From: Bacillota bacterium
Lineage (GTDB): Bacteria; Bacillota; JADQBR01
Length of the DNA stretch: 64,000 bases
Direction: 5' to 3'
Assembly: GCA_016278515.1 (NCBI GenBank)
Contig: JADQBR010000019.1
Coordinates: 1-64,000, forward strand
The notes under the pieces were generated by a model. That model saw only the letters and a program-made list of their open reading frames with translations, did not search any database and was not told the origin of the DNA. Below, piece after piece: positions 41,555-63,926 of the stretch. The first letter of the stretch is position 1. Each line of letters starts with the position of its first letter. Made by a program: the position numbers and the translations under genes.

Positions 41555-41591
41555 AGATGACTATGAGGCTTGAGGTAAGTGGGTTTATTTC

Positions 41592-41607
41592 CGGTACGCG
41601 TTTTGCA
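41592..41607 (+). promoter_or_regulatory. sigma-54 promoter of mutase operon
   Basis: CGGTACGCGTTTTGCA matches the TGGCACGNNNNTTGCW consensus with two changes; GG and GC are exactly 12 bases apart. Transcription should begin near 41617, about 48 bases before the gctA-like gene. Confidence 0.7.
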
Positions 41608-41664
41608 ACTAAAATAAGGTGTAAGTTTAGGTGTAAGAAAAACGTGCGGGAAAGGAGTGAATTA

Positions 41665-42663: not shown

Positions 42664-43490
42664 TGAATGTAGAAGAACAAGCTCCGGATAAGACGGGCAA
42701 AAATAAGACCTCTTACAGCCAACTAGAAATGATGGTTATTGCTTCCAGTAGGCTATTGGAAGATCAAGAACGGGTTTTGGTAGGAACCGGTCTTCCCCTT
42801 GTGGGAGCGGGGCTTGCAAAAAAGACTCACGCTAAGGACATGGTAGTAATTATGGAGGCAGTGGCTTTTGACAGCAATCCCCAGTCACTTCCCTTCTGTG
42901 TAGCCGATGCCAGGGCCGTTTATAAGACAAGATGGGTGCCAACCGCGGCGGAAGTGATGGGCCATTTTCTGCAAGGCGGCAGGATAGATGTGGGTTACTT
43001 GGGCGGGGCTCAGGTGGATCAATATGGTAACTTGAATTCCACTTGTATAGGTGATTACTATTCTCCTACGAAGCGTTTTGAAGGGTCCGGAGGTGCCAGT
43101 GATATTGCTGCTTTAGCAAAGAAGACCATTATCATAATGGCCCATGAGAAAAAACGTTTTGTGGAAACTGTGGATTACATTACCAGCACTGGTTGGAAGT
43201 GTCGTTCTTATGATGGTAAATCGTTGGTGTACAGATGGGAGTTAGGCTTGGACGGAGGGCCTTTTGCAGTGGTTTCTACCATGGGGGTAATGAAGTTTGA
43301 TGCTAATACTCATAAGATGTATGTTGATTATTACTATGCAGATTTAGGAGTAACATTAGGGGAAATAATCAATGCTACTGGGTTTGACATTGATACCTCC
43401 AGGGCCAAACCAATGGAACCGCCAACTCTTTTGGAATTAGAATTGCTGCGGACTAAAGTGGACCCTGAAGGAATTTATATGAAATATTAA
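42663..43490 (+). CDS. GctB-like CoA-transferase beta subunit
   Basis: A 275-residue B subunit of the same family, sharing VGTGLPLVGAGLAKKTHAKD (about 40-59) and GGAQVDQYGNLNST with GctB/IpdB proteins. In glutaconate CoA-transferase the catalytic Glu is in the B subunit in an E-x-G setting; here the aligned segment reads VIMEAVAFD (Glu about residue 65), so the Glu is kept but the Gly is not. Whether it is a transferase or an IpdAB-like hydrolase is therefore open. It overlaps the A gene by one base and precedes meaB. Confidence 0.8.
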   Translation: MNVEEQAPDKTGKNKTSYSQLEMMVIASSRLLEDQERVLVGTGLPLVGAGLAKKTHAKDMVVIMEAVAFDSNPQSLPFCVADARAVYKTRWVPTAAEVMGHFLQGGRIDVGYLGGAQVDQYGNLNSTCIGDYYSPTKRFEGSGGASDIAALAKKTIIIMAHEKKRFVETVDYITSTGWKCRSYDGKSLVYRWELGLDGGPFAVVSTMGVMKFDANTHKMYVDYYYADLGVTLGEIINATGFDIDTSRAKPMEPPTLLELELLRTKVDPEGIYMKY

Positions 43491-43516
43491 TACTAGTGCC
43501 GTAGGGGGTGAAGTGA

Positions 43517-44479
43517 ATTAAGAATGAACTGCTAATTAATTTTGATCGAGGGGATTTGGTAGCTCTGGGAAGAGCATTGAAGGAAGTGGAAAATCAGACT
43601 CCTTTGGGCTATGAAATAATAAAGCATACAGTCACCAAAAAAGGTAATGCCCATGTTGTGGGTGTTACAGGGCCCCCTGGAGTAGGGAAAAGCACACTGA
43701 CAGGGAAACTGTGTCGATTCTGGGCGGATATGGGATTGAGCGTAGGTGTGATATGTGTGGATCCTACCAGTCCCTTTAAGGGCGGAGCCTTGCTAGGGGA
43801 TAGAATTCGGATGCAGGAATTAGCGAAGTTACCTAATGTATTCATCAAAAGCTTAGCTACCCGCGGAAATGTTGGCGGCATTGCGGCTTCTACAGGGGAT
43901 ATCGTCCAAGTGATGGATGCCTTTGGTAAAGATATTATTATTGTAGAAACTGTGGGTGTTGGACAAGTAGAATTTGACGTAATGGATGTTGCAGATACGG
44001 TTGTCCTGGTAACCGTACCTGGATTGGGAGATACAATTCAAACCCTGAAAGCTGGTATTATGGAGGTTGCAGCGGTTTATGTGGTGAATCAGGCTGACCG
44101 GCCAGGAGCGGATGAAAGTGTTTCGGACTTACAGATGATGATAGAGGAAAGCGCTGCTAGTACATGGAAGCCGTCAGTGCTGAAAACTGTGGCTATCGAT
44201 AATGATGGCACAGAACAGCTGCTTGATGAGGTTGAGCGCCATAAGGAATATTTGAAGGAGACGTGCTTATGGGTTGGGAATCGCAGGGAGCGGAATATAA
44301 AGCAATTGTTTAAGGTTATCCAGAACAGTTTTAAGCAGCAGTTGAATGAATATATTGAAACCAATGGAGAACTTCAGAAACTCGTTTCCCAGGTTGGGGA
44401 GGGAAAACTGGATCCCCACAGTGCCGCTGAAGATATCATTGCGAATCTTATAAGGAAAACGCCTTTAGGGGGTAATTAA
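43517..44479 (+). CDS. meaB: MeaB/ArgK-type GTPase chaperone of B12 mutase
   Basis: A G3E-family GTPase that loads and protects adenosylcobalamin in the partner mutase. Motifs: Walker A TGPPGVGKST, CVDPTSPFKGGALLGDRIRM (switch), ETVGVGQVEFDV and NQADRPGADE (base recognition). The C-terminus carries the dimerisation region. The frame opens after a stop at 43514 and has no ATG or GTG before the conserved N-terminal motif. The best ribosome site, AGGGGGTG (43503-43510), points to ATT at 43517, which yields the family-typical LLINFDRGDLVALGRALKEV (320 residues). A TTG at 43556 would cut into this motif. Its stop is followed at once by the mutase ATG. Confidence 0.88.
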   Translation: MKNELLINFDRGDLVALGRALKEVENQTPLGYEIIKHTVTKKGNAHVVGVTGPPGVGKSTLTGKLCRFWADMGLSVGVICVDPTSPFKGGALLGDRIRMQELAKLPNVFIKSLATRGNVGGIAASTGDIVQVMDAFGKDIIIVETVGVGQVEFDVMDVADTVVLVTVPGLGDTIQTLKAGIMEVAAVYVVNQADRPGADESVSDLQMMIEESAASTWKPSVLKTVAIDNDGTEQLLDEVERHKEYLKETCLWVGNRRERNIKQLFKVIQNSFKQQLNEYIETNGELQKLVSQVGEGKLDPHSAAEDIIANLIRKTPLGGN

Positions 44480-46174
44480 ATGACTAAAGAAAAGCAAAAG
44501 CTTTTTGATCAGAAAGTGGTAGAGCAGCTAGGAACAAAAAAAGAACGTTGGCATGAAGAGACATTAAAAGGAAAGGTGGGGGATAAGAAGTATTACACAG
44601 AGTCGGGGATACCCATTGATATTCTATATTCGCCTTCAGATATTAAGGATTTAGACTTTCAAAAAGATATTGGTTTTCCTGGTGAAGCACCATATACTCG
44701 GGGAGTCTATCCCAATATGTACCGGGGCCGGCTGTTTACAGTGCGGCAGTTAGCTGGGTTCGGGGCACCGGAAGATTGCAATCAGCGCATAAAATATTTA
44801 TTAGATAATGGAGCAACCGGAGTAAATATTGTTTTTGACTTGCCCACTGTCAGGGGCTATAACTCTGATGATCCGGAGGCAGAAGGGAATGTGGGAGCTT
44901 GTGGAGTTGCCATTGATTCCTTGGAAGATATGGAAACCTTATTCAATAGTATCCCAATTGATGAAATTTCTTCGTCAGTGGTAACTCATATGCCCAGTAC
45001 CACAGTTGTGCTGCTTGCTATGTACATGGTAATGGCGGGAAAAAGGGGTATCGCACTGGAAAAGCTGTCAGGGACCAACCAAAATGACTTTTTAATGGAA
45101 ACGGTAGTAGGCAGTGCTCCGGAAATTCTTCCACCAAAAGCGTCTTTTAGGCTTCAGTGTGATGCTATAGAGTATGCGAGCAAGCATTTGCCTAGATGGA
45201 ATGCGGTCAGCTATAACGGTTATAATTTGCGTGAAGCAGGAACTAGTGCGGTACAAGAAGTAGCAGTTGGCATCGCCAACGCTATAGCCACTGCCGAAGA
45301 ATTAATCAGCAGGGGGAACAGCGTTGACGATTTTGCCAAAAGGATGTCCTTCTTCTGGGATCTGTGTAACGATTTCTTTGAGGAAATCGCCAAGTGCAGG
45401 GCATCAAGAATTGTATTCCAAGAGGTCATGCGGGACCGTTTCCAGGCAAAAAACCCTAAGTCACAGATGATGCGTTTTCATGTTCAAACCTCAGGAATTA
45501 CCCTCACTGCAGTTGAACCCCTAAACAACATTGCTAGGTCATCAATTCAAGGGTTGGCAGCCATACTGGGTGGGGCCCAGTCACTTCATATTGACTCTTA
45601 TGATGAAGCTTATTCTGCTCCGACAGAAGAAGCCGCCCTTGTGTCTTTGCGCACTCAGCAAATATTGCAGGCGGAAACCAATGTAGTTAACACTGTTGAT
45701 CCCCTCGCAGGGTCATACTACGTTGAGAATCTCACTCGTGAGATGGCCCAACGTATTCGTGATTACATTGAAGAAATTGAGCGAAAGGGCGGATTGGTAG
45801 CAGTTACGGAGAGTGGTTGGCTCCATAGAGAGATTTCAGATTTTGCATATAAGCAGCAAAAGGCAATAGAAAATGGAGAGCAAAAAATCGTTGGTGTTAA
45901 TCATTTTCCTGCGGAGAAGAAAAAAGCAGCAGAAATAGAGGTTTTTAGGTATCCGGAAACAGCAGTTAGACAGACAGAAAAGCTGGCACGGTTACGAAAA
46001 AAGAGAGACCAAGCGAAACTGGATAAGGCCTTAGGTAATCTTAGGGAGAAATGTCTATCGGATGAAAACATTATGCCTTATGTTAAAGAGGCGGTACTTG
46101 CTTTGGCTACCTTAGGTGAAATTGAAGAAATTTTCCGTGAAGAGTTTGGTTTGTGGCAATTTCCGCTAGCTTAG
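44480..46174 (+). CDS. B12-dependent acyl-CoA mutase large subunit
   Basis: A 564-residue catalytic TIM-barrel subunit of the methylmalonyl-CoA mutase superfamily, of the two-chain kind used by isobutyryl-CoA mutase and 2-hydroxyisobutyryl-CoA mutase. Shared parts are FPGEAPYTRGVYPNMYRGR, VFDLPTVRGYNSDDP and QTSGITLTAVEPLNNIARS. By eye alignment to methylmalonyl-CoA mutase, Tyr89 is Leu91, Ala116 (Asp in 2-hydroxyisobutyryl-CoA mutase) is Val118, Arg207 is Gly211 and His244 is Asn249. Loss of Arg rules out a carboxylated substrate. The pocket looks suited to branched, uncharged acyl chains. The B12-binding subunit follows 25 bases later. Substrate inferred from context: 2-hydroxyisobutyryl-CoA or pivalyl-CoA type. 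Confidence 0.88.
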   Translation: MTKEKQKLFDQKVVEQLGTKKERWHEETLKGKVGDKKYYTESGIPIDILYSPSDIKDLDFQKDIGFPGEAPYTRGVYPNMYRGRLFTVRQLAGFGAPEDCNQRIKYLLDNGATGVNIVFDLPTVRGYNSDDPEAEGNVGACGVAIDSLEDMETLFNSIPIDEISSSVVTHMPSTTVVLLAMYMVMAGKRGIALEKLSGTNQNDFLMETVVGSAPEILPPKASFRLQCDAIEYASKHLPRWNAVSYNGYNLREAGTSAVQEVAVGIANAIATAEELISRGNSVDDFAKRMSFFWDLCNDFFEEIAKCRASRIVFQEVMRDRFQAKNPKSQMMRFHVQTSGITLTAVEPLNNIARSSIQGLAAILGGAQSLHIDSYDEAYSAPTEEAALVSLRTQQILQAETNVVNTVDPLAGSYYVENLTREMAQRIRDYIEEIERKGGLVAVTESGWLHREISDFAYKQQKAIENGEQKIVGVNHFPAEKKKAAEIEVFRYPETAVRQTEKLARLRKKRDQAKLDKALGNLREKCLSDENIMPYVKEAVLALATLGEIEEIFREEFGLWQFPLA

Positions 46175-46199
46175 CTAATATTCTGAAGGAGGTAATGGC

Positions 46200-46589
46200 A
46201 TGAGTAGACCAATAAAGGTAGTAATGGCAAAGTTAGGCTTAGATATACATTGGCGGGGTGCAGTAGCTGTTTCCAGGATGCTAAGAGATGAAGGAATGGA
46301 GGTGGTTTACTTAGGAAATCAGTTTCCAGAACAGATAGTAAATGCAGCAGTTCAAGAAGGTGCTGACGTAGTAGGGTTAAGTACTCTGGGCGGTAACCAC
46401 AATTCGTTAGGACCGAAGGTGGTAGAACTACTCAGGAAAAAAGGTCTAGAAGATATACTGGTCTTGATGGGCGGGGTCATTCCTCCAGAGGACATTCCTG
46501 CCCTAAAAGAAAAGGGCATTGCAGCAGTGTTTGGACCTGAAAGTAAAATTGTGGACATAGCTTCATTTATTCGGGGTAAGGTATCATAA
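46200..46589 (+). CDS. B12-binding small subunit of acyl-CoA mutase
   Basis: A 129-residue cobalamin-binding flavodoxin-like domain, the stand-alone small subunit of the mutase. The base-off/His-on motif is complete: KLGLDIHWRG gives Lys11, Asp15, His17 and Gly20, followed by GLSTLGGNH and LMGGVIPPEDI for the nucleotide tail. ATG with GGAGG upstream. Confidence 0.93.
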   Translation: MSRPIKVVMAKLGLDIHWRGAVAVSRMLRDEGMEVVYLGNQFPEQIVNAAVQEGADVVGLSTLGGNHNSLGPKVVELLRKKGLEDILVLMGGVIPPEDIPALKEKGIAAVFGPESKIVDIASFIRGKVS

Positions 46590-46619
46590 TTACTAATTTT
46601 GTTTAAGGGGGAAAAATCG

Positions 46620-47357
46620 ATGAGGTTAGAGGGAAAGGTTGCGTTAATTACCGGAGGGGCTAAAGGAATTGGGCAGAAGACTGCTGAGGCTTTTCTCCGG
46701 GAAGGGGCTAAGGTTATTATCGCAGATTATGATGAGCAGGCTGGTCAATCTGTGATTAAGGAATTAGGGAATAGTGATGATATAAAGTTTATTAAGGTGG
46801 ATGTTACTTCAAGTAAACAGGTGGAGCAAATGGTGTCTGTGGCTAAAGATAGTTTCGGCAAGATTGACATACTTATTAACAATGCCGGAATTACCATAGA
46901 CGGCTTCCTGACGAAAATGACTGATGATGCTTGGGAGAAAGTCTTGGCAGTTAATTTGACCGGTGTTTTCAAATGCACTAAAGCAGTGGTGCCCTTAATG
47001 ATGGAGCAGGGCTCGGGAGTTATTCTTAATGCATCTTCAGTAGTGGGGGTTTATGGAAACATTGGACAGACAAACTATGCTGCTACCAAATCTGGTGTTA
47101 TAGGTATGACAAAAAGTTGGGCAAAAGAATTTGGGCCTAAAGGTATACGGGTGAATGCTGTAGCGCCAGGATTTATTGTCACCGATATGACTGCAAAGGT
47201 ACCGCAAAAAGTACTGGACATGATGGAATCTAAAACACCGCTAAATAGGTTGGGATATCCGGAAGATATATCGGCAGCATACCTATACTTAGCTTCCGAT
47301 GAAGCGAGTTTTGTTAATGGCGTTGTGCTTAATGTAGACGGTGGTTTGGTTCCCTAA
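46620..47357 (+). CDS. SDR 3-hydroxyacyl-CoA dehydrogenase (FabG/PhaB-like)
   Basis: A 245-residue classical short-chain dehydrogenase. It has the TGGAKGIG nucleotide motif (about 11-18), NNAG, the Ser in NASSVVGVYG, the YxxxK pair in TNYAATKSG, and a C-terminal NVDGG. It resembles FabG and acetoacetyl-CoA reductase PhaB, which act on the (R)-3-hydroxyacyl form. Between the mutase and thiolase genes it should oxidise the mutase product to the 3-ketoacyl-CoA. ATG 46620 is preferred as AAGGGGG sits eight bases upstream; a codon at 46599 has no site. Confidence 0.9.
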   Translation: MRLEGKVALITGGAKGIGQKTAEAFLREGAKVIIADYDEQAGQSVIKELGNSDDIKFIKVDVTSSKQVEQMVSVAKDSFGKIDILINNAGITIDGFLTKMTDDAWEKVLAVNLTGVFKCTKAVVPLMMEQGSGVILNASSVVGVYGNIGQTNYAATKSGVIGMTKSWAKEFGPKGIRVNAVAPGFIVTDMTAKVPQKVLDMMESKTPLNRLGYPEDISAAYLYLASDEASFVNGVVLNVDGGLVP

Positions 47358-47415
47358 GGAAGTTTGAAAGTTATCAAAAGAGTCTTGAATTGTAATAGGA
47401 GGAGGATAAATAGCT

Positions 47416-48591
47416 ATGAGTCGAGCGGTAATAGTCAGTGCTGTAAGGACAGCTGTAGGAAGTTACGGTAAGAGTTTAAATAATTATCCTGCTGTTGATT
47501 TAGGAGCGGCAGTGATTAAAGAAGTAGTACAGCGAATAGACTTAGATCCAGAGGAAGTGGATGAAGTAATCATGGGGAATGTACTGCAGGCAGGACTAGG
47601 ACAGAATCCTGCCAGACAGGCATCTATAAAAGCAGGCTTGCCGGTGGAAATACCTGCGTACACTGTAAATAAAGTGTGCGGTTCAGGATTAAAAACTATT
47701 GCCCAGGCTGCTCAAATCATTAAAGCAAAAGATGCTGAAGTAGTAATAGCCGGTGGAATGGAAAACATGAGTTTAGCGCCGTATCTTTTAGAAAAAGCCC
47801 GTTGGGGCCACCGGATGGGTGACGGAAAAGTTGTGGATGAAATGATAACAGACGGGTTATGGTGTGGCCTTAATGATTATCACATGGGTATTACAGCTGA
47901 AAATGTAGCTGCAAAATTTGGTATCACTAGAGCAGAACAAGATGAATTTGCCTTGGAAAGCCAAAAGCGGGCGGCATTGGCAATAGGACAAAGGAAATTT
48001 GAGAATGAGATTTTACCCCTTGACATTCCTCAACGAAAAGGAGATTATAAGCTATTTAAAGATGATGAGCACCCACGTTCAACTACACTGGAAAAGCTAA
48101 CATCCTTACGTCCCGCATTCAAAAAGGATGGGACCGTAACAGCAGGGAACGCGTCCGGGATTAATGACGGGGCAGGCGCAGTGGTAATTATGTCAGAAGA
48201 GAGAGCAAAAAGTCTTGGTTTAAATCCATTGGCCTATATTAAGAGCAGCGGCAGTGCGGGTGTAGACCCGGCCTTAATGGGCATTGGCCCGGTTCCTGCT
48301 TCAAGGAAAGCTTTGCAGAAAGCGGGTTTAAGAGCGGAAGACATGGATTTGATAGAAGCAAACGAAGCCTTTGCCTCCCAGGCTATAGCCGTATGCCGGG
48401 AGTTGGGCCTGAATAGAGAAAAAGTAAATGTTAACGGTGGTGCCATAGCCCTAGGACATCCCATCGGTGCTAGCGGTACTAGGATATTGATAACCTTGCT
48501 TTATGAAATGATAAGACGGGAAAGTGAGTTGGGGCTAGCTACACTTTGCATTGGCGGGGGACAAGGTGCTGCTGTTATCCTAGAGAGGTAA
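47416..48591 (+). CDS. acetyl-CoA acetyltransferase (thiolase)
   Basis: A 391-residue thiolase II that cleaves acetoacetyl-CoA (or a homologue) with CoA to acetyl-CoA, or runs in reverse. The nucleophilic Cys is in [12 protein letters not shown] (about residue 88), the GHPIGASG motif carries the active-site His (about 349), and the second Cys is in [10 protein letters not shown] (about 379). It is the last gene of the operon, followed by a strong terminator. It supplies the end product, acetyl-CoA, and hence the energy yield of the proposed pathway. ATG after AGGAGGAGG. Confidence 0.93.
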
Positions 48592-48661: not shown

Positions 48662-48780
48662 AAGTTATTATTGGAATGAGAGATGAGATAATTTGGGAGT
48701 GGTGAAAAGAAGGAATAGAGAGTTTATAGATAGAATATTGTGATAATACAAAAAACTTGCATTTTGGAGGCCTAGAGCCC

Positions 48781-50229
48781 ATGCACGGTATTTTGGAACT
48801 TAACTTATTAGGATTATTCTTTATATATGGACTTTCCTTTTATACTATGGGAGCAGCTATTGCCTTGCAGTATCGGAGCTATAGCAGCTTCCGATTGGCA
48901 TATAGTCTGAGTCTTTTGGCAGCATTTGGTCTGTTTCACGGTTTAAGCGAATGGGGAAATGTCTTTGTCCCTGTCAATGTACCCTATTTGGGGGAATTCC
49001 CCACCTGGAAGTTAATTGCCCTTCAACGTCTTCTCCAGGCTTTATCCCACTTCTTTTTGCTTCTTTTCGGCACAAAGCTAATATCTGATACTAAAGGAAA
49101 AAATCCATGGTGGTTTTTCTTTCCCATAGTGGTATTACTGGTATGGTTAATTCAGTTTGCCCGTTTTATTCCTTTAATAGAAAATCCTGATGTGATTGAC
49201 TGGCTGGTAATTAGTGAAAGCTGGTCTAGGTATCTATTGGCTTTTCCCGGTGGATTACTGACCGCTTACGGCCTGGCACTACAGATGCCTGAGGTAAAAG
49301 AACTCAATAATAAATCAGTGAGAAGTAACCTTTGGTGTTCTGTTGCGGCATTTCTAATGTTTGCATTCTTCAGTGGTCTTGTAATGCCACAAAGTGTAGG
49401 AATAATGGGAACAACCATAAGCGGAGAAGCTTTTCGGCGAATTGTGGGCCTGCCTGTAGAGTTGTTTCGCACCTTGGTTGCTGTAATTATAATGTATTGT
49501 ATTACTCGAATGTTAACTGTTTTTGATATAGAAAAGCAGAGGGAGTTAGAGGACAGTCATCATTTACAAGCGGTTTTACACGAGCGAGAGCGATTTGCCC
49601 ATGATCTGCATGATGATGTGATACAAGCTATTTATGGGATCGGAGTAAATTTACAGACGGTATCTCACGTTATAAAGAAGGATGGGGTAGAGGCGGAAAA
49701 GAAGGTGAAGATGTCTGTTGAACGATTAAATCAAGTAATTCATGCCCTGAGGTCATATATTCACGAACTGGAGATGGGTGGGGACAGTAGTGACCTGGAG
49801 GAAATGCTTGAGCAGCTTGTTGACGGGTTTCGCCGGCAGTACAATATGGATATAAAAGTTCGGATACTGGGCAAAAAACCACCTGGGGAGCAGCTGGAGT
49901 TTAAGATTATTCAGTGGCAAAAGCAAATTCAGCAGATAGTACGCGAAGCATTAAATAATATAGTTAAACATGCTAATGCAACTATGGCTGGTGTGACACT
50001 AAATTATAGGTTAAATTCCTTATTGATAGAAATAGCAGACAATGGCGAGGGCTTTTGTGAGCTAGAGACCGACAATCAGAGTACTCATCGGGGGCTTTCT
50101 AATATGCGTGCCAGAGCTGAACTGCTGGAAGGCACATTGAAAGTGGAAGCCACTGAAAAATCCGGAACCAGGGTGGAACTTACTATTCCCTATAGAAAGG
50201 TGCCGGGAGGTGTCAAATGTCCTAAATAA
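48781..50229 (+). CDS. NarX/DegS-type sensor kinase, multi-TM input
   Basis: A 482-residue histidine kinase of the HisKA_3 type. The N-terminal 245 residues form about seven membrane helices with aromatic-rich loops and no recognised sensor family, so the signal is likely sensed in or near the membrane. The kinase core starts near 260: HDLHDDVIQAIYGIG (phospho-His about residue 277), REALNNIVKHANA (N box), DNGEGF and GTRVELTIPY. ATG 48781 follows GGAGG by about ten bases. The response regulator follows 85 bases downstream. It probably controls the cytochrome/Fe-S/NrfD genes that come next. Confidence 0.87.
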   Translation: MHGILELNLLGLFFIYGLSFYTMGAAIALQYRSYSSFRLAYSLSLLAAFGLFHGLSEWGNVFVPVNVPYLGEFPTWKLIALQRLLQALSHFFLLLFGTKLISDTKGKNPWWFFFPIVVLLVWLIQFARFIPLIENPDVIDWLVISESWSRYLLAFPGGLLTAYGLALQMPEVKELNNKSVRSNLWCSVAAFLMFAFFSGLVMPQSVGIMGTTISGEAFRRIVGLPVELFRTLVAVIIMYCITRMLTVFDIEKQRELEDSHHLQAVLHERERFAHDLHDDVIQAIYGIGVNLQTVSHVIKKDGVEAEKKVKMSVERLNQVIHALRSYIHELEMGGDSSDLEEMLEQLVDGFRRQYNMDIKVRILGKKPPGEQLEFKIIQWQKQIQQIVREALNNIVKHANATMAGVTLNYRLNSLLIEIADNGEGFCELETDNQSTHRGLSNMRARAELLEGTLKVEATEKSGTRVELTIPYRKVPGGVKCPK

Positions 50230-50314
50230 TGCAGTACAGTTGACAGTTGTACATGGAATCCTGGTGTGTTACAGTTACCATTAACAGAATATTTTAAAAA
50301 AAGGCGGGGTGCGG

Positions 50315-50974
50315 ATGAATGACATTAAGATTATGATTGTTGATGATCATGAAATAGTGCGTTTTGGGTTAACGCATCTCTTTGAAGAATATGACGGATT
50401 ATCAGTTGTAGCGGTTGCCAGCACTTTAGCTGAAGCGCTTCGAAAGGTGGAGGAATTTCATCCTGATATTTTGGTGATGGATATCAGACTTGGAAGGAGT
50501 AACGGAATTGAGGCTTGCCAGGAAGTATCTAATCGATATCCGAATACTAAGACCATTATGCTTACTTCTTACGGGCAAGAGGACTTAGTGTTTGATTCCA
50601 TTCTTGCTGGTGCTAGAGGGTATGTACTAAAGGACGTTGGTAATGAGGAAATTATCAGGGCAGTTAGGGCGGTTTATAAAGGGGAGTCTCTACTGGATCC
50701 GGTGGTCACTAAAGGGTTGTTGGAACGTATGCGTAGGACGGCTCAGAAGCCCAACGATGATTTACAGCGCTTAACTGAAAGGGAACGTAAAGTACTGGGA
50801 TTTGTAGCTGAGGGAAAAACAAATAAGGAAATTGCCACCGCAATATACCTTAGTGAAAAAACTGTGAGGAATTATGTTAGCAGTATCCTGGCGAAGTTAA
50901 ATTTAGCTAACCGTACGGAAGCGGCAGCGTTTGCTGCCCGCAGAAATATGGCTGACAATACAAATAATTTATAG
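50315..50974 (+). CDS. NarL/LuxR-type response regulator
   Basis: A 219-residue regulator: receiver with VDDHE, phospho-acceptor Asp56 in LVMDIRLG, Thr in MLTSYG and Lys in YVLKDV; then a LuxR-type helix-turn-helix at about 150-205 (LTERERKVLGFVAEGKTNKE). Partner of the membrane kinase upstream. ATG 50315 lies six bases after GCGGGG. A terminator follows about 50 bases after the stop. Confidence 0.92.
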   Translation: MNDIKIMIVDDHEIVRFGLTHLFEEYDGLSVVAVASTLAEALRKVEEFHPDILVMDIRLGRSNGIEACQEVSNRYPNTKTIMLTSYGQEDLVFDSILAGARGYVLKDVGNEEIIRAVRAVYKGESLLDPVVTKGLLERMRRTAQKPNDDLQRLTERERKVLGFVAEGKTNKEIATAIYLSEKTVRNYVSSILAKLNLANRTEAAAFAARRNMADNTNNL

Positions 50975-51022: not shown

Positions 51023-51045
51023 AAAACACCTTCGGGTGTTTTTTT
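51023..51045 (+). terminator. intrinsic terminator
   Basis: AAAACACC-TTCG-GGTGTTTT with a T-run, a UUCG-type tetraloop hairpin, ends the kinase/regulator unit. Confidence 0.85.
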
Positions 51046-51351: not shown

Positions 51352-51852
51352 TTGAAAACGGAAAAAACAAAGAGTGGGAATAAACTATCTCAACAACCCA
51401 TTTTTCGGGTAGGAGTTGTACTGGTCTTGGTATTAGCTTCATTTGCCCTGGTGCAGCAGATTTCAGTCCCGGAATCTTTTGGACAGTACGGTTATTACCG
51501 TGGTGATAGTGTTAGCGAATGGGCTGATATGGAAGTGGCATTTGCAGATGAGAGCACAAGTTGTGCCGCATGTCATACTGACAGGTTTAATAACATAAAA
51601 ACAACAACCCATAAGGGGTTGAACTGTCAAACTTGTCATGGGCCGGCAGAAAAACATGCTAAGGATCCTGGAGGGAGTAAGCCGACGATTGAAGCCAGTA
51701 GAGAATTTTGCGGAACCTGCCACTTTCAGGTTCAAGGAAGGCCAGAAACAGCTGTTAAGCAAGTTAATTTAGACCACAATGGGCAGGTAAATTGCGTTCA
51801 GTGTCATCCGGCTCATGCTCCATGGTCCAAATTTGGGGGTGGAACAAAATGA
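51352..51852 (+). CDS. membrane-anchored tetrahaem cytochrome c
   Basis: A 166-residue exported cytochrome. One N-terminal membrane helix (about 18-37) anchors it, and the extracytoplasmic part carries four CxxCH haem sites: CAACH, CQTCH, CGTCH and CVQCH. Haem-rich and short, it is not NrfH, and it resembles the small multihaem subunits that accompany Fe-S/NrfD membrane complexes (compare DsrJ, which has three haems). TTG start with GGGGGGTAAG upstream. Its stop overlaps the ATG of the ferredoxin gene (ATGA). Confidence 0.9.
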   Translation: MKTEKTKSGNKLSQQPIFRVGVVLVLVLASFALVQQISVPESFGQYGYYRGDSVSEWADMEVAFADESTSCAACHTDRFNNIKTTTHKGLNCQTCHGPAEKHAKDPGGSKPTIEASREFCGTCHFQVQGRPETAVKQVNLDHNGQVNCVQCHPAHAPWSKFGGGTK

Positions 51853-52628
51853 AGCATGGAATGGACCGTAGAAGTTTTTTGAACCTAGGAGGAAAAGTGA
51901 TTATTGGAAGTGTTGTTTCATCCACTGCTGTCTTGCTGGTGCCCAATAGTATTAAGGCAGCGGATAAAGGGGACAACGACACTGTTAACTGGGAACAGGT
52001 ATGGCAACAGCAGGAATGGGGCTTTGCCATTGATACAAAGAAGTGTATTGGTTGTGCCCGATGCGTTAAAGCTTGTAAGGAGGAGAATAGCGTTCCTATG
52101 GATGAAGAGGTATACCGCACTTGGGTAGAGCGTTATATGCAGAAAACAAACGGGCAAATGTCTATTGAGTCTCCCGGTGGGGGACTGGAATTTACTCCAC
52201 GAAACGAGGAAGATGTGACAAAAAGCTACTTTGTTCCTAAGTTGTGTAACCAGTGTAACAAGCCACCGTGCACAAAAGTATGCCCGGTAGGGGCAACTTA
52301 TAAAACTGGTGATGGAGTAGTGCTTGTGGACAGAAAACGCTGTGTGGGCTGCGGTTATTGTATCCAGGCATGTCCCTACGGCGCAAGATTTCTACATCCA
52401 GAATTAAAGGTTGCAGATAAATGCACATGGTGCTACCACCGAATAGTTAAAGGACTGCTCCCGGCTTGTGTGCAAGTTTGCCCAACTGGGACCAGGGTTT
52501 TCGGCAATTTAGCAGATCCGGATAATCCTGTAACACCTATTCTAAAAGATCGCATTGGGGTGCTTAAACCCGCAATGGGGACTCAGCCAAGAGTATTTTA
52601 CAGAGATTTGGATCAGGGGGTGGTTTAA
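51849..52628 (+). CDS. Tat-exported four-cluster ferredoxin, DmsB/DsrO-like
   Basis: A 259-residue electron-transfer subunit. The N-terminal twin-arginine signal (MDRRSFLNLGGK) targets it to the outside. Sixteen cysteines form four [4Fe-4S] sites: CIGCARCVKAC, CNQCNKPPCTKVC, CVGCGYCIQAC and the split CTWC...CVQVC motif. That is the standard pattern of DmsB, PsrB, HybA and DsrO. It is coupled to the cytochrome gene (ATGA) and the NrfD gene (one-base overlap), so cytochrome, ferredoxin and NrfD should form one complex. No catalytic subunit is encoded in the unit. Confidence 0.93.
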   Translation: MKHGMDRRSFLNLGGKVIIGSVVSSTAVLLVPNSIKAADKGDNDTVNWEQVWQQQEWGFAIDTKKCIGCARCVKACKEENSVPMDEEVYRTWVERYMQKTNGQMSIESPGGGLEFTPRNEEDVTKSYFVPKLCNQCNKPPCTKVCPVGATYKTGDGVVLVDRKRCVGCGYCIQACPYGARFLHPELKVADKCTWCYHRIVKGLLPACVQVCPTGTRVFGNLADPDNPVTPILKDRIGVLKPAMGTQPRVFYRDLDQGVV

Positions 52629-53812
52629 TGGCAGGTTATGTATTCCCCAATGAGTTAGAAGTTCACTGGCGCTTGTTTGTTGTGATATATCCTTATATAA
52701 CCGGCTTGGTGGCAGGTGCGTTCATAGTTTCGTCGCTCTACCACGTGTTCGGTAAAAAGGAATTAAAACCAGTATTTCGTTTATCTTTAGTTACCGCTTT
52801 ATCATTTCTGCTTGTGGCACCGCTTCCGCTGCTGTTTCACCTTGGGCAACCTTTAAGGGCCTTTAACATAATGTGGACACCCAATCCCACTTCGGCCATG
52901 GCGGGTTTCGGGTATATTTACGGCTTCTATTTGATAGTGGTGCTATTGGAAGTTTGGTTTATTTTTCGACAGGATTTGGTTAAATATGCAGGTGAGACAT
53001 CTGGAGCCGCAAGGATCGGCTATAACCTGCTTACTCTTGGTGCCAAGGATGTCTCAGAAAGTACTCTGGCATTGGACCGGAAGATCATTAATGCTTTGGC
53101 TGTAATAGGAATACCTTCCGCAGTGCTGCTGCATGGTTATGTTGGGTTTATCTTTGGCGCCGTTAAGGCAAATGCATGGTGGTCCAGCCCGCTGCAACCG
53201 GTAATATTTTTACTGTCAGCTATTGTATCGGGTATAGCATTGTTGGCCTTGGTTTATACAGTATCAAGTTATTTTCGCGGTAAGAAAATTGATAGGGAGT
53301 GTTTGCTGGCCCTGAATAAATATCTTTGGGCATTTCTACTGGCTGCCATAGTCCTGGAACAACTGGATGTAATGCAAAAGGCTTACGAAAGTCGCGCAAC
53401 TTGGCCAGTGTTGCACGCATTATTGGAAGAAGCGATACCTGTCACCCATGCGTTACAAATATATGTTGGAGCAGCTATTCCTCTTGTATTGTTGTTGATT
53501 GCCAGATGGAATAAAGTTTCTTTTAAGATGAGTTACTGGCTAACGAGTCTTTCCAGTCTTATGGTATTAATCGGGGTCCTTTCAATGAGGTTTAACGTGG
53601 TGGTAGGAGGGCAGTTGGTATCCAAAAGCAGCCAGGGACTGACAGAGTTTCATCCACAAGCATTTGCTGGAGAAGGAGTTATACCAACAATTGCCTTACT
53701 AGCACTACCGGTAGTGATATTGGCGGTAATGACTAGACTGCTTCCTCCATGGTCTGGCGAGGAACAAGATGTTATTACTACACCTGAAAAAGAAACTGTA
53801 GTTGCTTCTTAA
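52628..53812 (+). CDS. NrfD/DsrP-type membrane quinone subunit
   Basis: A 394-residue protein with about ten predicted membrane helices, of the NrfD/PsrC/HybB family, which exchanges electrons between menaquinone and the exported ferredoxin. It is longer than the eight-helix form, like HybB and DsrP. HLGQPLRAFNIMW (about 76-88) is characteristic. ATG overlaps the ferredoxin stop by one base, with GGGGGTGG upstream. Confidence 0.9.
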   Translation: MAGYVFPNELEVHWRLFVVIYPYITGLVAGAFIVSSLYHVFGKKELKPVFRLSLVTALSFLLVAPLPLLFHLGQPLRAFNIMWTPNPTSAMAGFGYIYGFYLIVVLLEVWFIFRQDLVKYAGETSGAARIGYNLLTLGAKDVSESTLALDRKIINALAVIGIPSAVLLHGYVGFIFGAVKANAWWSSPLQPVIFLLSAIVSGIALLALVYTVSSYFRGKKIDRECLLALNKYLWAFLLAAIVLEQLDVMQKAYESRATWPVLHALLEEAIPVTHALQIYVGAAIPLVLLLIARWNKVSFKMSYWLTSLSSLMVLIGVLSMRFNVVVGGQLVSKSSQGLTEFHPQAFAGEGVIPTIALLALPVVILAVMTRLLPPWSGEEQDVITTPEKETVVAS

Positions 53813-53854
53813 AATGAGTGTTTAAATAAAAGACGAAAAGGAGGTTTGCTTCAA

Positions 53855-54181
53855 GTGTGGGTCATATTAATAACAATTGGTTTGGCAGCACTATTGGGAT
53901 TTTATCTTGCAATTAATTTTTTCTTTAAGCTCAGGTTGAAACCAGCATGGCGTTGGTTGGGAGCAGTTGTAGGAGGATTAATAACGGCGGTGCTCTTTGC
54001 GGTAACGGCTTTTATGGTTATTTGGCCGCCTATAAACTGGGCCACCACTATTCTGGGATTGGTTGTTGCAGGAGTGGTAACTGCTGCAGCGCTATATGGT
54101 AGTAATGCTAAAAAGGAGGCTGCATCCCATGATGACCTGGATGGTTATAATTTCGATATTAACTCTCGCACTGGGTCTTAG
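53855..54181 (+). CDS. small three-helix membrane protein, unrecognised
   Basis: A 108-residue membrane protein with three predicted helices and a short hydrophilic tail. No family recognised. The middle helix ends in VIWPPINWATT, similar to AFWPPYDTLS in the next gene, so the two look like paralogues. GTG 53855 is chosen because AAGGAGG lies ten bases upstream; a TTG at 53846 is too close to it. It follows the NrfD gene by about 40 bases and may be an accessory subunit of that complex. Confidence 0.65.
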   Translation: MWVILITIGLAALLGFYLAINFFFKLRLKPAWRWLGAVVGGLITAVLFAVTAFMVIWPPINWATTILGLVVAGVVTAAALYGSNAKKEAASHDDLDGYNFDINSRTGS

Positions 54182-54449
54182 TGTAGGTGGTCTGGTTCTG
54201 GGTTATCGTCAAGGACTTTGGAATAATATAGTGCGCTATTTGTTTATGGGTCTGCTTGGAGTTGTAATTGCTACTATCTTAATGGTTCTGACAATCATAG
54301 CTTTTTGGCCTCCGTACGATACATTGTCAGTAATGCTACCAATAGCTTTTATTGTTCTATTGGTAGGTGGTATCTATTTTGTACAAAATACTGCTGCAGA
54401 GCAGGGAGAGGATTATATTTTCTTTAAATCGGAGAAAAATATTTTATAA
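54129..54449 (+). CDS. second small three-helix membrane protein
   Basis: A 106-residue membrane protein overlapping the previous gene by 53 bases in another frame, with its own AAGGAGG nine bases before ATG 54129. Three predicted helices with a WPP motif in the same place as the preceding protein (IAFWPPYDTL). No known family. The overlap and pairing argue for coordinated production of two related subunits. Confidence 0.65.
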   Translation: MMTWMVIISILTLALGLSVGGLVLGYRQGLWNNIVRYLFMGLLGVVIATILMVLTIIAFWPPYDTLSVMLPIAFIVLLVGGIYFVQNTAAEQGEDYIFFKSEKNIL

Positions 54450-54704: not shown

Positions 54705-54740
54705 TTACACAAACAGATAAAGAAAGGGGCTAGGTCGATC

Positions 54741-54974
54741 ATGGCAGCCAAAGCTGAAAATTTTAAAGGTGTTGTGGTTTTTGATGAGTGGGAGATAAAA
54801 TGGATGGAACAGGCATTAACAGAGAAAATAAGGACAGAGCAGAACAAATTGTATTTTTTGCGGGATACGTTTGAATTAGCTGATGATTATAATATTCATT
54901 GGGGGCAGATTTACTTACAGCAGGAGATATTGGCGGCGCATGGGAGATTGCTTGAAAAATTTAAGGATTGCTAA
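54741..54974 (+). CDS. small unrecognised helical protein
   Basis: A 77-residue soluble protein, mostly helical by pattern (WMEQALTEKIRTEQNKLYFL), without cysteines except the last residue. I do not recognise it. ATG 54741 follows AAAGGGG. A zinc-ribbon membrane protein gene follows within 20 bases, so the two are cotranscribed. Confidence 0.6.
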   Translation: MAAKAENFKGVVVFDEWEIKWMEQALTEKIRTEQNKLYFLRDTFELADDYNIHWGQIYLQQEILAAHGRLLEKFKDC

Positions 54975-54991
54975 GTAGCGGGGGTGGTAAA

Positions 54992-55417
54992 ATGCTTGGT
55001 TCTACTAGAGAAGAAGTAGAGGAAAGACTGAAAGAAGCTGCTGCCTGGGTAACAGCAGGTATCGTTGGGATTGGTGTAGCAGTCTCGTTGACAATAATTT
55101 TTGTTTCAGTTGGAATGAAACTAATTTTGATTGGAGCTGCGGTAGGGTGTTTTGGTTGGATTGGAGCTAAGACATTTCCCTTGTTGTTGAAATATCATGT
55201 GATAACGTGTCCAAAATGCGCCACAAGTCATCAAGTGTGTTACGGAGCAGCTATCTTTTACTGCAGTCAATGCGGTAAAACACTCCGGGGCCAAGGGTTT
55301 TGGAGAAATGGAACAGACAAGAGACATGTACGAACTTTAGTTTCTGGAACGAAACTTACTTCTATTACAAAAAAATGGGATCAGTTGGGAGTAGATACGG
55401 AAAAAGAAGCAACATAG
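54992..55417 (+). CDS. membrane protein with C-terminal zinc ribbon
   Basis: A 141-residue protein. An amphipathic N-terminus (STREEVEERLKEAAAWV) is followed by two membrane helices (about 20-65) and a zinc-ribbon: CPKC, then CSQC about 20 residues later. The tail is basic. No function is recognised. ATG 54992 with GGGGGTGG upstream. It faces a convergent kinase gene with no clear terminator between. Confidence 0.65.
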   Translation: MLGSTREEVEERLKEAAAWVTAGIVGIGVAVSLTIIFVSVGMKLILIGAAVGCFGWIGAKTFPLLLKYHVITCPKCATSHQVCYGAAIFYCSQCGKTLRGQGFWRNGTDKRHVRTLVSGTKLTSITKKWDQLGVDTEKEAT

Positions 55418-55487: not shown

Positions 55488-56930
55488 TTAAGAAGTTGAT
55501 ATAAGTGCTTCTGTCAGGGGTATAGTAAACTCCAAAGTTGTACCGTCACCAGGGCTGGATTTAATGGAAAAGGATCCATTAAGTAGCTCCACCCGTTCAC
55601 GTATCCCAAATAGGCCAACACTCTTCTTGCCCTGTTTATCCAGGGCTTCTTTTATGTCAAAGCCTAGGCCATCATCCTCCACCTTTACTTGGAGTAAATT
55701 GCCTGTTGTTTCTATAATAATAGTTATTTTGCTGGCTTTGGCGTGTTTAGCAGTGTTAGTTAGGGCCTCTTGAATGACCCTGAATACGGTTATTTCCACT
55801 TCGCCGGACTGCCGGGGGATAAGACGGGGCAAGTTTAAGCACACTTCCATACCGCTTCTTTTTTGAAATTGATTGCCATATTGCCTGATGGCAGGTATTA
55901 ACCCCAGGTCATCTAACATACTGGGTCGTAAGTCCAGGGAAAGGTTATGGATGTCCTCCATTGTGGATACGGTAAGGTTTTTTAATTCCTGTACCATCTG
56001 TTCAAGTTCTTTGTTAGGGGTCAGTTTTTGTAAATGTGCCAGCCCTAGTTTTAAGCCAGTCAAGGCTTGGCCGCCTTGATCATGCAGTTCTCTGGCTACG
56101 CGCTGCCGTTCGTCTTCTTGTGCCTTTACAGTTTGAGATAGTCGTTCTCTTAATAAGCGAATTCTTTCTTCATTAATTTTAATAGTCTTTTTATGAAGCT
56201 CCACGTTCTCCTCATTGGTGATTTGCAATGACCGTAACATGGCGTTAAAAGCGCGGGCCAGGAAACCAAATTCATCTTTAGAGTACCAACTAATAGGATG
56301 GCTAAAATCTCCTTGGGCGACTTTTCTAGTAGCGGATAGGAGTGTATTAAGGCCCCTGCTGATAGAACGAGCCAGGTGCCAGCCGAGAACTACCTCAATC
56401 ACTGTCACAAGAAATAGCGCCGTAGATAAAAGATAACGGGTCCGCACTACTACCTTTTGGGTTGTCAAACTATAGTCGTTTATTTGTTCAGTACTTTTCT
56501 GCTGAAATTCTTTAACCTGTTGTAAGACTTGGTTGTAGCTTTGGGTTAGTTTATCAACTGCCAATGAGTGATTACTTTCGGTATTTAATAAAAATAGTTT
56601 ATAATTTTCAGTAAATTCGTTATAATTAGTCTTGAAGGCGTTTAGTTTTTCCTGTGAACCGGTATAGTGTAAAGAGAAGGCAGAAATGTCTGATTCTAAT
56701 TCTTCAAGGTTACGGTTGTTTGATGTAGGAGATAGGGAATTAACCTCCATGTTCAGAGAGGTAAGGTCGTCATAGATGCTGTCAATTCTCTTTATCTGTG
56801 CTAACTGAGCAGTAATGTCTGTAGATAAATTAGCGATACGGCTAGTGAGACTAACAGTTATTATTACTTGGCTGGTCATCAAAGCTAGCAGCATTGATAA
56901 CGTGAAAATTAGGCGGGTGCGAATGGACAT
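55488..56930 (-). CDS. NarX-like sensor histidine kinase
   Basis: A 480-residue membrane kinase. Two membrane helices (about 5-28 and 168-190) enclose a long, helical, extracytoplasmic coil-rich domain of about 140 residues, with no recognised ligand fold. A HAMP domain (HLARSISRGLNTLLSATRKV) and HisKA_3 core follow: RELHDQGGQALTG (phospho-His about 282), SMLDDLGLIPAI, QEALTNTAKHAKAS, DDGLGF. ATG 56930 is used since the preceding in-frame ATG at 56951 has no ribosome site. It is transcribed divergently from its probable partner regulator at 56976, which is less common than a kinase-regulator operon. Confidence 0.9.
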   Translation of the reverse strand: MSIRTRLIFTLSMLLALMTSQVIITVSLTSRIANLSTDITAQLAQIKRIDSIYDDLTSLNMEVNSLSPTSNNRNLEELESDISAFSLHYTGSQEKLNAFKTNYNEFTENYKLFLLNTESNHSLAVDKLTQSYNQVLQQVKEFQQKSTEQINDYSLTTQKVVVRTRYLLSTALFLVTVIEVVLGWHLARSISRGLNTLLSATRKVAQGDFSHPISWYSKDEFGFLARAFNAMLRSLQITNEENVELHKKTIKINEERIRLLRERLSQTVKAQEDERQRVARELHDQGGQALTGLKLGLAHLQKLTPNKELEQMVQELKNLTVSTMEDIHNLSLDLRPSMLDDLGLIPAIRQYGNQFQKRSGMEVCLNLPRLIPRQSGEVEITVFRVIQEALTNTAKHAKASKITIIIETTGNLLQVKVEDDGLGFDIKEALDKQGKKSVGLFGIRERVELLNGSFSIKSSPGDGTTLEFTIPLTEALISTS

Positions 56931-56975
56931 GCAGATCACAACCTTTGCCATAAAATTTTTTCAGGAGGAATTTTA

Positions 56976-57644
56976 ATGGGGAATAAACAAGGTGCTATTA
57001 GTGTATTTTTAGCTGAAGACCATGCAGTTGTTCGCTCAGGATTGCGGCTGCTGATCAATTCTGAACCTGATATGTCAGTAGTTGGTGAGGCTCAAAATGG
57101 CCGGGAAGCTGTGGACCAAGTACTAGAGCTTATTCCTCAGGTAGTGTTAATGGATGTTAGCATGCCAAAACTTAATGGTTTGGAAGCTTGCCGGAAAATA
57201 ACTCAAATAAACGAGAATATTCAAATATTGATGTTGACCATGCATGATAATGAAGAATATTTTCTTGAAGCTCTGCAGTGTGGTGCAATGGGGTATGTGC
57301 CGAAAGCTGCGCCTGAAGAAGATGTTCTAGGGGCAATTCGCTGCGTGGCCCAGGGGCAGAAGTACATTCACCCATCGGTGACCCACCTGCTTGTAGGGCA
57401 ATATCTAGATCATGGACTGAAAAAGAATGGTGGCATTAAGTATGATAACTTAACTAAAAGGGAGATAGAAGTTCTCCGTTTGGTAGCGATGGGTTATACC
57501 ACAAAAGAAATAGCCGAAAAACTTACAATTAGTGCACATACTGTACATAATCATAGGAACAATATCATGGATAAATTGGATATTCACGACCGCCTGGGTT
57601 TGCTGAAATATGCTTTAAAAAAAGAGATATTGGATTTGGATTGA
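56976..57644 (+). CDS. NarL/LuxR-type response regulator
   Basis: A 222-residue regulator with receiver (AEDHAVVR, Asp60 in VLMDVSMP, Thr in MLTMHD, Lys in YVPKAA) and a C-terminal LuxR helix-turn-helix (LTKREIEVLRLVAMGYTTKE). Starts 45 bases from the divergent kinase gene, so the promoters overlap. ATG with AGGAGG upstream. Confidence 0.92.
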   Translation: MGNKQGAISVFLAEDHAVVRSGLRLLINSEPDMSVVGEAQNGREAVDQVLELIPQVVLMDVSMPKLNGLEACRKITQINENIQILMLTMHDNEEYFLEALQCGAMGYVPKAAPEEDVLGAIRCVAQGQKYIHPSVTHLLVGQYLDHGLKKNGGIKYDNLTKREIEVLRLVAMGYTTKEIAEKLTISAHTVHNHRNNIMDKLDIHDRLGLLKYALKKEILDLD

Positions 57645-62854: not shown

Positions 62855-63011
62855 CTGTATTTATATCAATAAATTACCCGATAGTAGAAGGAAACTTGAC
62901 ATGGGATAATTGACCTAGGATATTAAATAAATTGTAAGGCTAGTATGAAAGGAGGAAAGTAACGGTTGGCAACTCAACTAATTGTAACTATTTTCACGAG
63001 GAGGTTTGAGA

Positions 63012-63926
63012 ATGAATTCATTTGTTCCCTGGGATATGAGGGTAACCATTGATCTATTTTTAGGAGGCATGGGAATCGGCGCATTCTTATTAGCGTTAGT
63101 GGCCGGATACCTTGGAGAGCCTTATCGTCTCCTAAAGAAAACAGCTGCAATAGTTTCTCCCATAGCCGTTTGCACAGGATTGTTGTTTTTAATTTCTGAA
63201 CTTGGGCGTCCTGGAAGGTTTATCACCACATTATTTAACAACAATTCGGCTTCAGTTATGTCATGGGGGGTATATCTGCAAACCGGTTTTGTTATATTTG
63301 CAGTAGTTTATGCATTGCTGATTCTTAAGCAGCGAGATGATGAAGGAATTGCGGGGTTAATCAAGTGGGTAGGCGGCTTGTTAGCCGTAGGAGTAGGTAT
63401 CTATCATGGTTTTTTATTGAGTTCTAATGTTGGGGCAGGTCTTTGGAATAATGGTGCGCTGCCGATAATGATTTTTGTGTCCTCCCTATTAACGGGCATT
63501 TCTTTGGTGGTAGTAATAAATGCAGCTATTTCAACAAACCTCGCTAGCAGTACAGCAGCTAACGAAGCTGCTGCTGGGAAAGAAGGCAGCACTTTATTTA
63601 ATATTAACTTAATAAATGCTGTGCTGTTGGTAGTTGAATTAATAGCAGTATTGGCGTGGCTGTTTACCCTAGCTAGAGGAAGCCAAATTATGTCTTTTGG
63701 TTTAAATAACCTGCTTTCAAACTATCCGGTACAATGGTGGCTGGGTGCGGTAGTGGTAGGGATTGTTATCCCATTATTGCTTAGCTTGTATGGTCTGAAA
63801 GTGGGCAAAAACGAGCAAGAAAGTACTACCATTATTGCAGCAGGTGCGGTTTTAATATTAATTGGAGGATTTGTATTAAAAAACGTTATCTTAGTAGCAG
63901 GGCAAATCAAGTATCCTCTATTTTAA
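63012..63926 (+). CDS. NrfD/PsrC-family membrane quinone subunit
   Basis: A 304-residue protein with about eight to nine helices, the short form of NrfD used by polysulfide, tetrathionate or thiosulfate reductases. Signature parts: LFLGGMGIGAFLLALVAG (about 17-34) and SELGRPGRFITTLF (about 64-77). ATG 63012 after GAGGAGG. It precedes a Tat-exported protein gene, so it is the membrane anchor of a new oxidoreductase that continues outside the window. The gap before it (62855-63011) has one strong AAAGGAGG near 62950 leading to a 28-codon TTG frame that runs into this gene, which I do not accept as a gene. Confidence 0.9.
   Translation: MNSFVPWDMRVTIDLFLGGMGIGAFLLALVAGYLGEPYRLLKKTAAIVSPIAVCTGLLFLISELGRPGRFITTLFNNNSASVMSWGVYLQTGFVIFAVVYALLILKQRDDEGIAGLIKWVGGLLAVGVGIYHGFLLSSNVGAGLWNNGALPIMIFVSSLLTGISLVVVINAAISTNLASSTAANEAAAGKEGSTLFNINLINAVLLVVELIAVLAWLFTLARGSQIMSFGLNNLLSNYPVQWWLGAVVVGIVIPLLLSLYGLKVGKNEQESTTIIAAGAVLILIGGFVLKNVILVAGQIKYPLF

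Follow-up and report, generated by a model that had tools for sequence, protein, structure and literature searches.

The 64,000-nucleotide stretch of DNA analysed here (the window), from a member of the Bacillota with a genome of 4.27 Mb, encodes at positions 51352-54449 of its forward strand a unit of five genes for a tetrahaem cytochrome c, an iron–sulfur (FeS) protein, an NrfD-type membrane subunit and two small membrane proteins (Table 1). The first three genes are coupled, with the stop of the cytochrome gene overlapping the ATG of the FeS gene as ATGA and the FeS stop overlapping the NrfD start as TAATG, and the genes of the two small proteins overlap by 53 bases. The cytochrome frame opens with TTG and encodes an N-terminal transmembrane (TM) segment followed by CXXCH motifs at residues 71, 92, 120 and 148. 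The cysteines of the FeS protein fall into four groups behind an N-terminus containing DRRSFL, which is of the twin-arginine (Tat) type, and close relatives of the NrfD show 8–10 hydrophobic segments by a simple count. Small protein 1 probably starts at the GTG at 53855 rather than at 53846, because a GGAGG sits just 1 base from the latter. No catalytic subunit is encoded within 51352-54449, and a reductase hidden in the unit was rejected as none was found by the probes used. The coupling, the cofactor motifs and the lack of a catalytic subunit, all claimed in an earlier note made on the window, were thus borne out, and other genomes show the identical five-gene order. A promoter scan returned 12 promoter-like sites against 15.5 expected. 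Two terminator-like inverted repeats, seen by eye in the sequence near 51026 and 54547, are absent from that scan's list.

Table 1. Genes of the five-gene unit and its linked neighbours in the window. Class A loci are Bacillota loci with an NrfD module of the window type.
Feature	Coordinates	Strand	Evidence
Tetrahaem cytochrome c with N-terminal membrane anchor	51352..51852	+	Four CXXCH; PF14537, PF13435 and PF14522 above cut-off
Tat-exported four-[4Fe-4S] protein, NrfC/TtrB/DsrO-like	51849..52628	+	16 Cys, twin-arginine N-terminus; Fer4_11 93.2 bits
NrfD-type quinone-interacting membrane subunit	52628..53812	+	PF03916 137.7 bits (cut-off 25.8); all 66 rows compared share H71 and S89
Small membrane protein 1 (3 TM, WPP motif)	53855..54181 (53846 start also possible)	+	Conserved directly after NrfD; homologous to small protein 2
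Small membrane protein 2 (3 TM, WPP motif), beginning within the small protein 1 gene	54129..54449	+	Profile matches near NrfD; AlphaFold2 model with three helices, low confidence (mean pLDDT 70.8, pTM 0.42)
Sensor histidine kinase, multi-TM N-terminal half	48757..50229 (TTG 48757 or later start)	+	HisKA_3, HATPase_c; homologue with regulator at 13 of 15 class A loci
NarL/LuxR-type response regulator	50309..50974	+	Response_reg and GerE; in 14 of 15 class A loci, the 15th cut by contig end
Small soluble open reading frame, accessory neighbour	54738..54974	+	Homologue at equivalent place in L017
Two-TM protein with CxxC...CxxC zinc-ribbon-like tail, accessory neighbour	54968..55417	+	Homologues adjoin the unit in L017, L179 and L180

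Among 398 genomes of the host's phylum, NrfD of the window type (E ≤ 1e-160) was found at 15 loci in 14 genomes. All 15 have a tetrahaem cytochrome and an FeS gene upstream of NrfD, and one or two small TM proteins downstream of it. Within the fetched range, a sensor kinase with a regulator accompanies the module at 13 loci (one more has a regulator at the contig end) and a decahaem-type cytochrome at 11, a count that includes an 8-haem relative about 6 kb away (L172); a molybdopterin-enzyme probe matched at none of the 15. Loci L011 and L017 also carry TatA, and L011 TatC as well. Three other NrfD matches (E 1e-61 to 1e-76) have molybdenum-enzyme genes as neighbours and no small proteins. The earlier note had staked its proposal on two points, and both hold: some homologous clusters have no reductase, and linkage between NrfD and the small proteins is observed.

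A scan of species genomes across phyla returned 198 NrfD relatives, of which the best 80 were fetched, so that the following counts describe the closest ones. Some of these and of the survey loci are identical contigs (e.g. L021 and G013), and class A counts use survey loci only. Cytochrome, FeS and NrfD genes occur in that order at 68 of the 80 loci (hand count of the table), the other 12 being cut by contig ends, affected by read-through open reading frames or unlabelled; the cytochrome has four haems in most relatives and six, eight or nine in others. The genes next to this core differ. An HAO-like octahaem cytochrome occurs in the locus of 29 of the 80 relatives (PF13447 in both tested), including L048, labelled HAO-linked despite a distance of about 8 kb between its octahaem and NrfD. 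In L027 a DmsE-type decahaem cytochrome (236.8 bits, cut-off 192.2) and an MtrB/PioB porin (347.5 bits, cut-off 240.05) come right after NrfD, while L031 has a CCG/nitrate-reductase-gamma (NarI) fusion resembling DsrMK, and L034, L041 and similar loci have at that place a gene with size and motifs like those of this fusion. In a tree of 66 NrfDs, from which near-duplicates were omitted, the Bacillota sequences form one clade (support 100/98) and the HAO-linked sequences a separate one (100/100). Since the partners differ around a conserved core, the constant element is a quinone–cytochrome hub whose partner is exchanged. In L045, L051 and other Desulfobacterota loci, the core is followed directly by the HAO-like octahaem, the NrfDs have a clade of their own and a molybdenum-enzyme gene lies nearby in several; this arrangement is a candidate NrfA-free ammonifying system.

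The core of cytochrome, FeS protein and NrfD is thus of a known kind and not new. The new part is its Bacillota form, with a regulator pair, a decahaem neighbour and the small proteins, hereafter WPP proteins after their common motif; the module in Bacillota was not met in a literature search judged by titles and abstract openings, with subscription papers outside its reach. The unit resembles the NrfBCD part of NrfABCD in its cytochrome c, its four-cluster Tat FeS protein, its NrfD and the His at the quinone-site motif, but it is without NrfA, has a tetrahaem cytochrome against the pentahaem NrfB and adds the WPP proteins. It missed the cut-offs of the NCBIfam models NrfC (151.5 bits, cut-off 377.6) and NrfD (59.5, cut-off 347.6) and of the pentahaem family PF22678 (12.3, cut-off 27). 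Alternative complex III similarly carries out quinol:cytochrome c oxidoreduction via FeS and NrfD-like subunits, but it combines two NrfD-like subunits with a large FeS subunit and further cytochromes, whereas the unit has a single NrfD gene, a single small FeS gene, no large ActB-type subunit and no ActE.

Quinone binding by NrfD-like subunits takes place near the outer face, next to an FeS cluster of the partner, and the quinone site of Escherichia coli NrfD has been named as His74 and Ser92 (PMC8076601, in part). The motifs, compared by eye rather than by a computed alignment, suggest that the invariant H71 and S89 of the window protein are the equivalents of these residues. We read the unit, with a probability of about 0.68, as a menaquinol:cytochrome c oxidoreductase of the NrfBCD kind that is without a substrate-reducing subunit of its own, feeds extracytoplasmic multihaem cytochromes and is joined by lineage-specific accessory membrane proteins. 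In this scheme NrfD would oxidise menaquinol at its outer face and hand the electrons to the Tat-exported subunit, whose four iron–sulfur clusters would relay them to the anchored tetrahaem cytochrome. Extracytoplasmic multihaem cytochromes encoded apart from the unit (a decahaem protein in most of its relatives within the Bacillota) would accept them next, for onward passage across the wall. The WPP pair would serve this lineage as accessory subunits or as assembly factors, and its WPP turn would lie on the outer side of the membrane, at the docking site of the redox subunits. The partner exchange described above (HAO-like octahaem, MtrB/PioB with a DmsE-type decahaem, CCG/NarI fusion) fits an electron hub, and the quinone-linked, outward-oriented module without a catalytic subunit that the earlier note had envisaged is supported. 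For the NrfD family, proton translocation has been proposed in print.

A decahaem route from the quinone pool to the wall has been described in the Bacillota for Thermincola, whose extracellular pathway comprises ImdcA, PdcA, CwcA and OcwA; ImdcA itself was proposed as the quinol oxidase, and the scheme links the quinone pool to the wall by the decahaem cytochrome alone (PMC7911101, in part). Decahaem genes adjoin the present module in Thermincola-labelled metagenome-assembled genomes, whereas a word search found 'NrfD' absent from the text of PMC7911101. In the window genome, the cytochromes plausibly available to the host as terminal ones are a relative of 6qvm, 'multiheme cytochrome cf' (E 1.1e-33), a relative of 6i5b and a 9-haem protein anchored by an SLH domain. 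We take 6qvm and 6i5b to be OmhA and OcwA, terminal Fe(III) reductases. The genome is rich in multihaem cytochromes, NapC/NrfH-like proteins among them, and a double-CXXCH pattern gave 26 matches in it against 0 in the reversed control, at least one of the 26 (window position 24997) falling in a non-cytochrome gene. From gene linkage and these likely surface cytochromes, electron exchange of the unit with extracellular acceptors or donors is putative. A decahaem-type cytochrome gene whose frame is broken near the 3' end lies at L097:9750-10616 of the same genome, beside another FeS–NrfD pair and an OmpR-type regulator.

The same parts might work in reverse, electrons from extracellular or periplasmic cytochromes (with Fe(II), a cathode, a syntrophic partner or a sulfur compound as donor) entering menaquinone as in Nhc and Qrc of sulfate reducers. 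Those reductase-free NrfD complexes do operate that way (PMC8076601, in part), and the core occurs both with the MtrB/DmsE conduit, usable in either direction, and in loci labelled Gallionella and Ferrovaceae. NhcABCD, like Hmc and Qrc, combines a multihaem cytochrome, an FeS protein and an NrfD-like subunit without a substrate-reducing enzyme, and has a further subunit, NhcD; it differs in having nine haems against four here, and an Asp in NhcC against a His here at the motif position (PMC8076601, in part). This His, in place of the Asp of NhcC and QrcD, speaks against reversal without settling the direction. The window proteins missed the models HmcB (98.7 bits, cut-off 420), QrcC (96.2, cut-off 400), QrcD (38, cut-off 570) and HmcC (29.6, cut-off 550), and no Nhc model was among the matches listed for them. 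The relatives of 6qvm and 6i5b, presumed Fe(III) reductases, likewise argue for export, and we consider uptake by the module unlikely.

The module could also be the quinol arm of a split NrfABCD-like enzyme whose reductase, for nitrite, tetrathionate, arsenate or sulfite, is encoded elsewhere in the genome. The HAO-like octahaems at 29 of the 80 loci are in line with this, as is Thermosulfurimonas dismutans, in which an nrf operon with NrfD, NrfC and multihaem cytochromes and without NrfA was read as a nitrite reductase, so that a core without NrfA is already in print (PMC4911364, in part); that system differs in that G416, the genome of L045 with the label T. dismutans, yielded no WPP protein. 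The window genome offers an HAO-like 7-haem protein and, just past the window end, an ArrA-like molybdenum enzyme (1155.2 bits, cut-off 1600). However, the former is adjoined by its own NrfH-like gene and the latter has its own NrfD and FeS genes, and both were rejected as partners. The genome has no strong NrfA, its best match to PF02335 (NrfA) having scored 24.7 bits (cut-off 24.1) among multihaem proteins of a different sort; nor was any such enzyme found at the 15 Bacillota loci by the probes used. A split enzyme is accordingly improbable. The HAO-like 7-haem gene, at L254:6322-8081, adjoins its NrfH-like tetrahaem gene near a molybdenum oxidoreductase, and its product is likely a nitrite or related reductase with its own quinol link.

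Another explanation is a DsrJOP complex detached from DsrMK and serving sulfite reduction. The gene order (cytochrome, Tat FeS protein, NrfD) and the outward orientation match those of DsrMKJOP, the cofactors are similar and the FeS protein scored 173.6 bits with the DsrO model, but the unit has neither DsrM nor DsrK, and its cytochrome has four haems rather than three. Moreover, the cut-offs of DsrO (200) and of DsrP (NrfD 36.0 bits, cut-off 350) were missed, and the genome holds, outside the window, DsrAB (DsrA 553.5 bits) together with a complete DsrK-J-O-P-M cluster (L126), in which K, O, P and M are over the NCBIfam cut-offs. Given the missed DsrO and DsrP cut-offs, the window module is a second module distinct from the DsrMKJOP of the genome, and we strongly disfavour the sulfite explanation as very improbable. 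The earlier note had called for a check for dsr genes and extracellular cytochromes, and dsr genes and likely surface cytochromes were found; its statement that no DsrMK is present is true of the window and not of the genome, and its comparison with DsrJOP is not supported if read as kinship.

The two small proteins matched no Pfam or NCBIfam family above cut-off. They are homologous to each other (hhalign profile–profile E 9.9e-8 over 83 columns, with the common WPP motif), in agreement with the paralogy proposed earlier. In the 398 genomes, a profile of small protein 2 gave ten strong matches (E < 1e-16), all ten within about 2 kb of this NrfD type, and six more weak ones (E 1.5e-5 to 8.3e-5), one of them also beside it. 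A 30-member WPP profile returned 74 matches at 50 loci in 27 genomes, to which classes were assigned with a 5 kb limit and simple probes: 15 loci beside the window-type NrfD module (class A), 22 with a heptahaem cytochrome and a cytochrome b561-like gene as neighbours (class B), three beside a second NrfD type with a monohaem protein (class C) and five with a divergent form between ftsZ and spoIIGA (class D). At E ≤ 1e-10 (profile A5), 33 of 33 loci belong to classes A–C, each with a quinol/multihaem or NrfD neighbour, and the family is less exclusive to these classes at weaker scores. These counts include the training rows, of which three class B loci supplied some; the independent part consists of all three loci of class C and, within class B, of 19 of 22 loci, or 12 of 15 at E ≤ 1e-10. 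Paired matches occur at 11 of the 15 loci of class A and at 13 of the 22 of class B. Three classes coexist in the window genome, which has, besides its class A locus, a class B pair (L235) and a class D copy (L236). At L235:4303-4741, tandem short WPP proteins precede the heptahaem cytochrome and the cytochrome b561-like gene. At L236:4784-4987 of the same genome, and likewise in L230, L234, L237 and L240, ftsZ and spoIIGA flank a gene for a short TM protein of the WPP type.

When the WPP profile was run against 50 non-Bacillota genomes holding the core (50 of the 68 non-Bacillota loci), 49 gave no match and one a weak match (E 1.6e-4) to part of the model inside a 267-residue frame; because of this, the small proteins do not belong to the core complex in general. 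Their role as NrfD-specific subunits is rejected by the 22 class B loci beside the heptahaem/cytochrome b module. The earlier suggestion of new subunits therefore stands in so far as the linkage holds at all 15 Bacillota loci, and falls where it implied a general or NrfD-specific component. Lysine and arginine number 83 in 407 residues of the first loop and 2 in 226 of the WPP loop, in the same sense in 30 of 30 rows, and this charge distribution, favouring the first loop, predicts the WPP turn at the outer membrane face. The family, with its recurrence beside unrelated electron-transfer modules, is the more surprising result. We tentatively suggest that WPP proteins could be a common membrane adaptor of Gram-positive electron export, tandem small proteins that would dock by their outer-face turn to several unrelated quinol-oxidising modules (NrfD/tetrahaem, NrfD/monohaem and heptahaem/cytochrome b561) and assist in coupling these to wall-crossing multihaem cytochromes, a joint proposal that we hold to be possible rather than probable.

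Several observations weigh against a menaquinol oxidoreductase feeding wall cytochromes with WPP proteins as its accessories. The single decahaem homologue in the window genome is on another contig, has a frame broken near the C-terminus and is not beside the unit; three further class A loci besides that of the window are without a decahaem neighbour. There is no respiratory module at the class D loci, nor at five weak WPP loci that fit no class. NrfD gave 0 matches to solved structures with 3-row and 66-row profiles (the latter at E ≤ 0.1), and its quinone-site assignment therefore rests on motif position. Finally, the direction of electron flow is not readable from sequence. The analysis shows the order of the genes, their cofactor motifs, their conservation and their linkage, and from these we infer quinone oxidation, direction, partner and what the small proteins do.

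The linked neighbourhood exceeds the five genes and takes in the kinase/regulator pair (48757-50974) and two small genes (54738-55417), because homologues of these adjoin the unit elsewhere. The two-TM protein at 54968..55417 had no Pfam match, and in L218 a homologue of it adjoins the second NrfD type. Downstream of the unit, at 55488-57644, comes another sensor-kinase/regulator pair, a divergent one, which resembles genes close to the unit in L179 and L180. Upstream, at 41557-48591, a CoA-transferase pair, a MeaB-like GTPase, a two-subunit B12-dependent acyl-CoA mutase (564 and 129 amino acids), a dehydrogenase and a thiolase stand in a row, which we presume might be a 2-hydroxyisobutyryl- or isobutyryl-CoA mutase route. 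A second NrfD gene at 63006-63926 (also L013:2955-6855) opens the cluster of the ArrA-like molybdenum enzyme, which also holds an FeS subunit and a TorD-like chaperone (TorD assigned by eye).

A conserved NrfD module with its own regulator pair beside decahaem cytochromes would give electrons of the quinone pool a second way into the wall cytochromes, one that may conserve energy. The WPP proteins are a marker leading to three kinds of quinol–cytochrome modules in one phylum and, if the adaptor proposal is true, their divergent form between ftsZ and spoIIGA would point to a broader function in the positioning of membrane complexes.

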